A stretch of DNA of 31,753 nt from a virus, in IMG/VR virus record IMGVR_UViG_3300008450_000253, positions 1 through 31,753 of that record; one strand, written 5' to 3'. A model generated the notes under the pieces. That model did not search any database and had not been told where the DNA came from. It saw only the letters and a program-made list of their open reading frames with translations. The translations under genes and the position numbers were made by a program. Each line of letters starts with the position of its first letter. Position 1 is the stretch's first letter. Shown here one piece after another: positions 4,032 through 29,247 of the stretch.

Positions 4032-4573
4032 ATTCCTAATTTATTTAATTGACTAATTCCACTTGAAGGAGAAGTATAATAAACTGCTTTAGCACCTGTT
4101 TCCTTCCAAGGTTTTATATTTTTATAAAAATCATCTACTAATATTGAATTAGATATTTCTTCCTCATTTTTACCTTGTAAAATATCATGTTTATTACCTG
4201 AATACCTGAAATAAATATCTTGGGGTTGAGGTGATAAATTATTTTGAATCCATTTTGTTTTACCGGACCTAGATTCTGGATTTCTGGAGGGTGAAGTTAG
4301 TATAAAAGGATTATATGGGGAAATTATAGACCATAATTCATCACAACCTTCCATTTTAGGTAAAGTAGCCCAAAAATCTTCTTCAGACATATTTTTTTCC
4401 TTTAATTTATCATGTAATAAACTCCAAAATTCATTAACGTTTTTAGATTTATTTTCTACACCTGTTATTTCAGCATATCCTTTATCAAAGTCTACTAATA
4501 CACCATCCATATCACAATAGATAGTGTATTCTTTATCAATACTTTCTTTTAATATATCTAATAATTTATACAT
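4028..4573 (-). CDS. HAD-superfamily phosphatase, 5'(3')-deoxyribonucleotidase-like
   Basis: 181 aa. HAD motif I is YCDMDGVLVDF (nucleophile D21, acid D23). Motif II/III-like region is ILTSPSRNPESRSGKTKW, with motif IV ILVDDFYKN (D147/D148). This arrangement matches the NT5C-type nucleotidases, which remove phosphate from deoxynucleoside monophosphates. Length is close to the family norm once the first 15 residues (MYKLLDILKESIDKE) are set aside. Those form an extra leader with an L-K-E/S site. It overlaps its neighbours by 4 and 8 nt. Polynucleotide 3'-phosphatase is a less likely alternative. Confidence 0.82.
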   Translation of the reverse strand: MYKLLDILKESIDKEYTIYCDMDGVLVDFDKGYAEITGVENKSKNVNEFWSLLHDKLKEKNMSEEDFWATLPKMEGCDELWSIISPYNPFILTSPSRNPESRSGKTKWIQNNLSPQPQDIYFRYSGNKHDILQGKNEEEISNSILVDDFYKNIKPWKETGAKAVYYTSPSSGISQLNKLGI

Positions 4574-5843
4574 TCTTAATTGAATCTTCCCAATTTCTAA
4601 AAGTTATATTTCCATTTAAATAAGCCTCTTTTTCTAATTCTTGTAAATTACCATCTTCATTAGTATTAGTTGTATTAATACCATTTAATCTACCTTCATT
4701 ATCTTGAATGCGATGAATCATTTCATGAGCATATGAACGCAATATATCTTTAGGATGACGATTTAAGGTGTATAAAGTGATTGAACAATTAGTTGGATTA
4801 TAATATGCTGTTTTACCTAAAATATCATTAGCATTTTGTATATCGCTATTTATTATTTTTAATCTAGGTAAAGGTTTGATATTCATACCTTGATCAATCA
4901 TATATTTAGTTAATGAAGCTAAAGCACTCTTAAAATCCATAGGTTGTTCATGTTGACAACCACAATCTTCTTCAAGATTTATTTTAGGATTAGATGTTTG
5001 AAAATTCTTTTTACGCATTATAGTTTTAGCAATAGCTTGATTAGCTTGATTAACTAATGGAATATTAATATTAGTTTTATTATCTGTTGCTACAATTTCT
5101 TGATATTTTTTAAGAAAACTAATTAATTGTCCTTTTTTACGTGATAAGCGTTTAAAAAATTCTTCAAGTTCTTCTGAAGTAATAGGAGGTTCATTTCTAG
5201 GATCATTTACTCTATCAAAAAAATGAGAAGTAAATTCTACATCTAGAGGGTCTAATTGTTCATCTGCTACTTTTTCAACAGAATCTAAAGCTGACTTAGA
5301 CATTTCTTCTATAGTGCCAGCACTTATAGCTTTAACAAAATCTTGTTGATCGATATCATCAGGTAAAAATCTAGAAATATCTTGATTTGTTTGTAAAGCG
5401 TTTCTAAAGTCTGTAGCATTTATGTTTCCACCTTCATCACTAACTGTTCCACCGTCTATAATTTGAACTTTAGGATTTTTAGTTAATGATTTATATCTAG
5501 ATTCTTCTCCTTTACCATATGCTACTATAAAATTATCTTCAGGATTACTTTTTATAATATCATAAACATATGAAACAGGTGACGAAGGAGCAACTACTAC
5601 AGTTACTTTATTTCCTAATATTGTTTTATATAAATTCCAAACTGCTTCACTTTGTTGAGCAGTTATTCCATCTTTAGGTAAAGGAGAAACAACTACAACT
5701 ACTTCATCTGCTTTATTCAATAATCCTTTAACAATATCAAAATGACCTTTATGAGGTGGTTTAAATTTACCTGGATATAAGGCTACTAATCTATCAGAAG
5801 CTTCCAACAATGGTTGTATAAGTTCTTTAACTAATGAATTCAT
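4566..5843 (-). CDS. Nucleotidyltransferase fused to HExxH metallopeptidase-like domain
   Basis: 425 aa, apparently three parts. Residues 1-18 are a leader (ELIQPLLEAS). Residues 19-170 form a Rossmann-like nucleotidyltransferase: LYPGKFKPPHKGHF with the HxGH signature H31-H34, and INATDFR (141-147) in place of the ISxTxxR signature. Both are typical of NMN/pantetheine/glycerol-3-phosphate adenylyl- or cytidylyltransferases. Residues about 200-295 form a phage domain ending KTIMRKKNFQTSNPKI, which I associate with other phage proteins but cannot name. Residues about 300-425 carry AHEMIHRIQ (HExxH, 373-377) with downstream Glu (KEAY, E406), as in gluzincin metallopeptidases. The substrate is unknown for both catalytic parts. 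Coupled by ATGA to the kinase gene. Confidence 0.8.
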   Translation of the reverse strand: MNSLVKELIQPLLEASDRLVALYPGKFKPPHKGHFDIVKGLLNKADEVVVVVSPLPKDGITAQQSEAVWNLYKTILGNKVTVVVAPSSPVSYVYDIIKSNPEDNFIVAYGKGEESRYKSLTKNPKVQIIDGGTVSDEGGNINATDFRNALQTNQDISRFLPDDIDQQDFVKAISAGTIEEMSKSALDSVEKVADEQLDPLDVEFTSHFFDRVNDPRNEPPITSEELEEFFKRLSRKKGQLISFLKKYQEIVATDNKTNINIPLVNQANQAIAKTIMRKKNFQTSNPKINLEEDCGCQHEQPMDFKSALASLTKYMIDQGMNIKPLPRLKIINSDIQNANDILGKTAYYNPTNCSITLYTLNRHPKDILRSYAHEMIHRIQDNEGRLNGINTTNTNEDGNLQELEKEAYLNGNITFRNWEDSIKNV

Positions 5844-6640
5844 CCTATAAAATTTTTAACAACATTAGGTAACTCTTTAGCATCTATTGGATCTAACTTA
5901 GATTGAATATCATCGTAAGTATCTGCTATCTTATCGATGTTTTTTTCTAAAGTTTTCTTAGTTGCTTCACGTTGTTTTTCTCTTTTAGCTAATTCTTCAG
6001 GTGATAAACCAACATCTGATTTTTTAAATGTAGATTGAAATTCACCTGTAGTAAATAAGTCTGAAAAATATTCTTTTAGTTTACCTGATTCATATGCTTC
6101 TTGAAAATTGTCAATTTCTTTAAATTCTTCAGGAGTTGAAGCAGGTGAACTAACTAATACAAAATTATCACCAAATATATTTTTATATTCACCAATTAAA
6201 TTATAAACATTAGCCCAAGTACCCAAAACACCAACCGCTGGAACTTTACGTTCACGTTTATAATTTCTTAAAAATGATATAATAGGGTGAGCATAAACCA
6301 TAATCATCATTACATCATATCCATTATTTTTTAGTTCATCTAAAATTGGTTGTAATGTTTTAACATTAGAAGCTGTTGTGTCATAAATTAAATTACGTTT
6401 AGCTTCTATAGCGTTTGGTAGATCTTTTTTTTTAATTTGAGAAGAAGCAGCTGATAAATTACCATACATTGGTGATTCTTTATCTTCTACGTATTTGTCA
6501 GCATTAAGATTTGTAAAATTTTTTATTAGAGGTTCAATAGACTTAAGTACTGTTGATTTACCTACCGCTGCTCCACCTGCCATAATAATGGCTTTAGGCT
6601 TGTCTATAGCTTCTAATAATAATTCAGTAAGTTTAATCAT
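5840..6640 (-). CDS. P-loop kinase, zeta-toxin/polynucleotide-kinase-like
   Basis: 266 aa. Walker A GGAAVGKST at 22-30, then NADKYV (D48, the position of the substrate-binding Asp in zeta toxin and related kinases), IYDTTASN near residue 100, and a lid-like Arg-rich segment NYKRERKVP. Together these fit a small-molecule or polynucleotide kinase of the zeta-toxin type. The core is preceded by a 15-residue leader (MIKLTELLLEAIDKP) with L-L-E/A. The C-terminal 60 residues are a charged helix. First gene of the operon running to the left edge, with its own promoter at 6647-6677. The phosphorylated substrate cannot be told from sequence. Confidence 0.8.
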   Translation of the reverse strand: MIKLTELLLEAIDKPKAIIMAGGAAVGKSTVLKSIEPLIKNFTNLNADKYVEDKESPMYGNLSAASSQIKKKDLPNAIEAKRNLIYDTTASNVKTLQPILDELKNNGYDVMMIMVYAHPIISFLRNYKRERKVPAVGVLGTWANVYNLIGEYKNIFGDNFVLVSSPASTPEEFKEIDNFQEAYESGKLKEYFSDLFTTGEFQSTFKKSDVGLSPEELAKREKQREATKKTLEKNIDKIADTYDDIQSKLDPIDAKELPNVVKNFIG

Positions 6641-28682: not shown

Positions 28683-28743
28683 AGAAAAGATCTGATCGGG
28701 TGCGCTTCATTCGGGTAAAAGAGAGGCGTCTCAGATACAGATG

Positions 28744-29151
28744 TGGAGTCGGAGGGATTCGAACCCTCGTCCAAATGATGGCTCATTGAAATTCATTCAC
28801 AAGCTTAGTTTATTTTTTTAAATAAACAAACAGTTGGTTGGTTCTTCAGCCATCGTCAACCTAACAACCAATGGTTTTTTAACTGTGTTTTATGAGCTAG
28901 TTAACGCACTCTTTTTAGTAAACCTTCTGTTCCTAGGTGAAGTTACAATAACCCGTTTGGTTAAGCTGCTAATAGCAACTCAGCCTCTTCTGCTACCGCT
29001 AAGCGAGTAAGAGAAGTTGGGATACTCATCATATCCTCAGAGTTATAAACGTTGTCGTTTAAATTGTACATAGGTGATTATCGTGTTTCCAATGCTAACA
29101 CGGCTTGCATTTCAAAGAACTCTTACCACTTGTCAAAACCATGTCGACCCC
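28744..29151 (-). ncRNA. ssrA: tmRNA (transfer-messenger RNA)
   Basis: About 408 nt. The ends GGGGTCG and CGACTCC pair as a 7-bp acceptor, followed by discriminator A. The T-arm GAGGGTTCGAATCCCTC is perfect (28752-28768). CCA is not encoded. The 5' part GTCGACATGGTTTTGACAAG is D-like. CGTGTT ... AACACG fits pseudoknot 1. The reading frame ends LLLAA-TAA (stop 28963-28961) inside a 12-bp helix GGCTGAGTTGCT/AGCAGCTTAACC, the normal position in helix 5. The tag could be AEEAELLLAA (resume GCA at 28993) or start further 5' in the same frame. It rescues stalled ribosomes and tags proteins for proteolysis. Confidence 0.92.
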
Positions 29152-29175
29152 TTTAATACATATATACATATATCG

Positions 29176-29247
29176 TACTCCTGACGGGAATCGAACCCGT
29201 GTTTCGTCCGTGAAAGGGACGCGTCCTAACCCCTAGACGACGGGAGC
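29176..29247 (-). tRNA. tRNA-Glu (UUC)
   Basis: 72 nt. Acceptor GCTCCCG/CAGGAGT with G-U at the first pair and a C-A mismatch at pair 6. D-arm with CTAGGGGTTAG. Anticodon stem CGTCC/GGACG around loop CTTTCAC (anticodon TTC). T-arm ACGGGTTCGATTCCCGT. No encoded CCA. Lies 24 nt before the tmRNA, so the two are probably one transcript. Confidence 0.93.

Follow-up and report, generated by a model that had tools for sequence, protein, structure and literature searches.

The window analyzed here, the whole 31,753-base stretch of IMG/VR virus record IMGVR_UViG_3300008450_000253, carries on its minus strand (28743..29151) a transfer-messenger RNA (tmRNA) gene, ssrA, in the one-piece form, and comparison of its sequence with those of its relatives indicates a tag of 31 residues (DNVYNSEDMMSIPTSLTRLAVAEEAELLLAA) containing a conserved inner module. 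The gene is on balance probably a working phage tmRNA whose tag would act as a two-part degron, in which a ClpX-type end is combined with an inner module for a second binding partner. This interpretation is favored because the tag is strongly conserved as a peptide, because the inner motif is mobile between RNA bodies, and because an A-x-A-A end is mostly kept, and ordinary trans-translation would be expected because the RNA anatomy is conserved. The pattern suggests that phages may add a second signal of their own to the degradation tag.

The original prediction, made from the letters alone, of a phage tmRNA at this place is confirmed both by ARAGORN and by an Rfam covariance search, in which RF00023 covers the gene end to end (positions 1-374) with 113.3 bits (E = 8.6e-44), above the gathering score of 47 bits. 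The acceptor stem (GGGGUCG/CGACUCC) pairs G3 with U70, which is the alanine identity, and CCA is not encoded; the resume-codon context and an open tag frame with a hydrophobic end and a stop codon complete the features by which a tmRNA of this family is recognized. The computed fold is also more stable than those of shuffled sequences (z = -4.1).

The resume codon is placed at GAC (29054..29056, minus strand) because the covariance alignment, the spacing from pseudoknot 1, the upstream bases, and the tags of relatives agree. Covariance-model alignment, which had been proposed as a check on the prediction, sets the consensus resume codon GCA opposite GAC at 29056..29054. In E. coli, 12 nucleotides separate pseudoknot 1 from the resume codon, with a required A at -4 that is usually preceded by U (PMC2481249), and the window tmRNA has both the same spacing (TACAATTTAAAC between pseudoknot 1 and GAC) and UA at -5/-4. 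The 31-codon tag frame (28964..29056) includes the inner module EDMMSIPTSLT (29006..29038), ends in the degron-like EAELLLAA (28964..28987), and is closed by the stop codon TAA (28961..28963), all on the minus strand. Only the end portion had been seen by ARAGORN, which called EEAELLLAA from another UANNN site 22 codons too late, and in the original prediction, which put the resume codon too far downstream and gave the tag about 9-14 codons. The sequence features noted there (an LLLAA ending, an AEEAE stretch, and no NYALAA) are all correct, and the frame is indeed open upstream of the start assumed there, as noted; the conclusion drawn from that openness was wrong, because the true resume codon lies there. 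EEAELLLAA was rejected as the true tag since the alignment, the spacing, and all relatives point to a start further upstream; in relatives with a GCA resume codon, ARAGORN often starts where argued here, for example at ANVYNAEDMMSIPTSITRVAVAEEAELLMAA in locus L116. An open frame of this length is weak evidence alone, and it is the relatives that carry the argument. The standard Bacteroidota tag is short (∼10 residues) with an NYALAA end, whereas the window tag has 31 residues and ends in LLLAA. A helix is predicted at residues 14-30 of the tag peptide alone, which counts for little in an isolated peptide.

Long tags are common in the tmRNAs of uncultured phages. Three more tmRNAs, every one of them long-tagged, were found in 50 records with the same baseplate protein as the window, and three main long-tag classes emerged when IMG/VR was searched with 5′-body, 3′-body, and tag patterns. 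Type A tags have 22-26 residues with SxFTFEDAM[AS]FV, usually followed by a GADYAVAA-like end; type B tags, the class of the window, have 27-35 residues with EDxMSIPTS[LI]T, which in subtype B2 stands directly after the resume codon (AEDIMSIPTSLTRGNAVFARNAELAIAA); and type C tags resemble GKTNVWEAINSFGAPVSQVEFAVAA. Among the matches listed, 106 loci chosen by the 3′ body comprise 30 of type A, 3 of type B, 2 that are B-like, and 10 of type C, so that 45 carry a long-tag module, along with 40 short ANxN...LAA tags and 21 others, proportions that are not population frequencies. The majority of long tags end in A-x-A-A. Other long tags have no A, B, or C motif (L300, L304, L305, L246, and L324, the last of roughly 35 residues; for example, GENPFFVLAGLGSVETAEVALAA), which makes further module classes probable. 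A 197-kb phage record (L086; 1501-1861, 2548-2970) has a tmRNA with a tag of roughly 34 residues (ANKNIISQDSRNFANQVEAKIISLVRNEYVAIAA) and, about 0.7 kb away, a GOLLD RNA (RF02032).

The tag inserts are, as judged from their codon patterns, under strong selection at the peptide level. Across 28 distinct type A cores, fetched by RNA-body patterns in which the tag was not used, the ratio of nonsynonymous to synonymous polymorphism (pN/pS) is 0.23 in the tag frame vs. 2.2 and 3.2 in the other frames, and codon position 3 varies more than positions 1 or 2 (p about 0.001 and 0.0005, with columns as units). As a guard against a selection artefact, since the A and B sets had been fetched by tag patterns, the analysis was redone on these type A loci. 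The 29 type B cores give 0.22 in the tag frame vs. 1.8 and 3.3 in the others, although they include one mis-set row and were fetched by the peptide pattern, which makes them weaker evidence on their own. The serine of MSIPTS is encoded by AGT in one type B group and by TCT in the other, codons that are two changes apart.

The modules are restricted to phages within the genomes searched. The degenerate type B pattern EDxMSIPTS identifies 48 loci in IMG/VR, 42 of which are confirmed as tmRNA by Rfam or ARAGORN; four of the remaining six are truncated by the end of the locus sequence or are situated close to it, and the other two (L119 and L122) show a tag and a 5′ end with no Rfam match. Neither this pattern nor the type A pattern, which fits 65 of 93 viral copies, has a match in 84,980 bacterial and archaeal genomes (GTDB), where both scans demand an exact match to a degenerate pattern that looser cellular versions could escape. 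The original suggestion of a phage-specific tag unlike that of the host is supported by this distribution, the type A and B motifs recurring in phage tmRNAs. A tblastn search of type A and B tags against named phages returned only a 735-kb huge phage (two records) and one chance protein. In this phage, LR756501.1, the type B tag lies within a divergent tmRNA missed by ARAGORN; Bacteroidetes are the predicted hosts of the group to which the phage belongs (PMC7162821). The same tmRNA (L112, 2247-2478) contains a group I intron (RF00028), and the record also encodes SmpB.

Sequence comparison shows that different tmRNA bodies have exchanged tag modules. With several type A tmRNAs (L099, L240, L231, and L174), the window gene shares 80-85% identity in the 5′ body, and type B tags also occur in bodies that are only 50-60% alike. 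Modules A and B have an alignable stretch in common, [FY][TN]xEDxMS (shuffle p = 0.004), on the strength of which they may serve one and the same partner; A-C and B-C module alignments were not significant in the shuffle test.

In the proposed mechanism, the alanine-charged tmRNA would be carried by SmpB, either that of the host or, in some relatives, one made by the phage, to a ribosome stalled on a broken messenger RNA. Translation would resume at GAC, and the 31-residue tag would be added to the nascent chain. Its last residues (LLLAA), which fit C-terminal LAA-type ClpX recognition by sequence, would serve the usual ClpX-type recognition, while the inner module (EDxMSIPTSLT, or SxFTFEDAMxFV in sister phages) would be bound by a host or phage adaptor, unfoldase, or protease, analogous to SspB on the front of the E. 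coli tag. An alternative protease or adaptor, as raised in the original prediction, has become more plausible because the inner module is conserved and because ClpP genes occur in 15 of 39 long-tag phage records, a count that may include some ClpP-like head proteases, and SmpB genes in 5 of 33. In two phages with type C long tags these genes are neighbors: ClpP and SmpB genes (227 and 141 amino acids) touch in G084 (L388, 7715-8823) and are one gene apart in G085 (L389, 7960-9937). A wider proposal, put forward tentatively and with less confidence, is that large phages have a tmRNA family whose exchangeable phage-only modules steer tagged proteins to a dedicated partner, such as a phage adaptor/ClpP complex or a hijacked host factor, as a phage-run quality control by trans-translation.

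Several observations weigh against the two-part degron. No partner protein was identified, as neither an SspB gene nor a ClpX zinc domain was found in any of 39 long-tag phage records, and neither an SmpB nor a ClpP gene was recognized in the window, which is a 31.7-kb fragment. In addition, LAA is replaced at the end of some type B tags by LA, AV, or MELV, and the C-terminal degron is therefore not universal. In 14 control genomes, SspB was positive only in E. coli and Caulobacter and negative in the Bacteroides control, so that the earlier idea that the tag avoids SspB-like recognition in the host finds no support. Tags ending in EIELMELV or similar, in which the inner motif is kept and the A-A end is lost, are found in L115, L121, and L124.

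Such tags, together with others that keep the module without an LAA end (for example, VEDLVLA), are what would be expected if the module diverted tagged proteins from degradation toward a phage compartment, a chaperone, or a regulator and the tag were a signal and not a degron; this is unlikely, as A-x-A-A ends most tags and ClpP is carried by several long-tag phages. It is quite unlikely that the tag is merely long, its inner residues forming an unconstrained spacer that eases protease grip and has no specific partner. Tag lengths do range from 22 to 35 residues, and the codons of the E. coli tag can be changed without losing ribosome rescue (PMC2481249), but conservation in the tag is highest at the inner residues (pN/pS about 0.2) and one motif is common to very different tmRNA bodies.

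Two further explanations place the conservation elsewhere than in a tag peptide. The conserved methionine could be an internal start that yields a free short peptide (M-MSIPTSLT...) with the upstream GAGG as a Shine-Dalgarno sequence, and the methionine column in 93 type A copies is indeed ATG in 84 and TTG in 5, both of which are start codons. Bacteroidota-like hosts rarely use Shine-Dalgarno sequences, the site would fall within folded RNA, and the residues before the methionine (TFED, NSED) are kept as amino acids through synonymous change, which together leave this explanation very improbable. The inner sequence could also be conserved as RNA, as a hairpin or a protein-binding site, since the window copy can form GGAUA-loop-UAUCC, this hairpin shows up in the computed tmRNA fold, and type B copies near that of the window have GAGGATATxATGAGTATCCCAACTTC nearly letter for letter. 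Conservation of the hairpin at the nucleotide level, suspected from an exact match with LR756501.1, was rejected, as B2 copies are recoded at nearly all synonymous sites (GAAGACATAATGTCTATTCCAACT) with the hairpin broken and the peptide kept; third positions also vary freely in type A, and the RNA explanation is largely refuted, with hardly any probability left to it.

The tmRNA gene lies 23 nucleotides downstream of a gene for tRNA-Glu (UUC), a transfer RNA called by ARAGORN on the same minus strand (29175..29247), with which it is probably co-transcribed; tRNA-Glu likewise adjoins the tmRNA in L099, L100, L102, L104, L106, and L107. A blastn search of the window tmRNA against named phages gave matches confined to tRNA-Glu. 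The nearest named phage for the baseplate wedge protein of the window is Flavobacterium phage immuto (47% identity), in which no tmRNA match was detected, and the window tmRNA most likely belongs to a large phage related to Flavobacterium myophages. Within the 5′ part of the phage tmRNAs, an element that looks like a Bacteroidota ribosomal RNA leader (boxA-like; GTTCTTTGA, window 29151-29100 and relatives) is present, and in L112 it is placed just upstream of the tmRNA. Elsewhere in the window, a protein with a zeta-toxin-like kinase domain (5840-6640; PF06414, E 2.3e-15) is encoded amid phage genes, and another (4566-5843) has an N-terminal cytidylyltransferase-like stretch (PF01467, weak).

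The tag module bears on the reasons for which phages encode a tmRNA. Strong peptide-level selection on a module common to dissimilar tmRNA bodies, and its absence from the bacterial genomes searched, indicate that for the phage the tag has a value of its own, beyond ribosome release. EDxMSIPTSLT or SxFTFEDAMxFV offers a concrete bait with which to find the partner and to test directly for phage-specific disposal of proteins, and because standard software shortens such tags, existing annotations hide them.

The tmRNA family, phage tmRNAs, and long tags elsewhere are already known. A tmRNA is described in Bxz1-group mycobacteriophages, phage G, Melnitz, and huge phages, with SmpB in some cases; the window phage likewise has ssrA in its genome, as do relatives that sometimes add SmpB, whereas a long common tag module is absent from the available portions of these descriptions (PMC4131195, PMC9004378, PMC7162821). 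The tmRNA database of 97,179 sequences shares the standard one-piece form and, in the portion available, reports short tag extremes (2 amino acids) and no phage long-tag class (PMC11915505). The motif strings of the modules occur in no paper of the literature searched, which left most subscription journals outside its scope, and the same literature yielded no phage tmRNA family whose conserved inner tag motifs are exchangeable. Mollicute tmRNA tags have about 27 residues and are read by Lon; they resemble the window tag as long composite tags with an inner recognition element and differ in being cellular, while the phage tag of the window ends in AA; no likeness in sequence was noticed, although no comparison aimed at one was made. 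The E. coli tag (AANDENYALAA; SspB, ClpXP) has 10 encoded residues vs. 31 in the window and an unrelated inner motif, and the phages have no SspB gene. The two are alike in the resume codon 12 nucleotides after pseudoknot 1 with UA upstream, in an L-A-A C-terminus, and in an upstream stretch that may offer a second factor a binding site.
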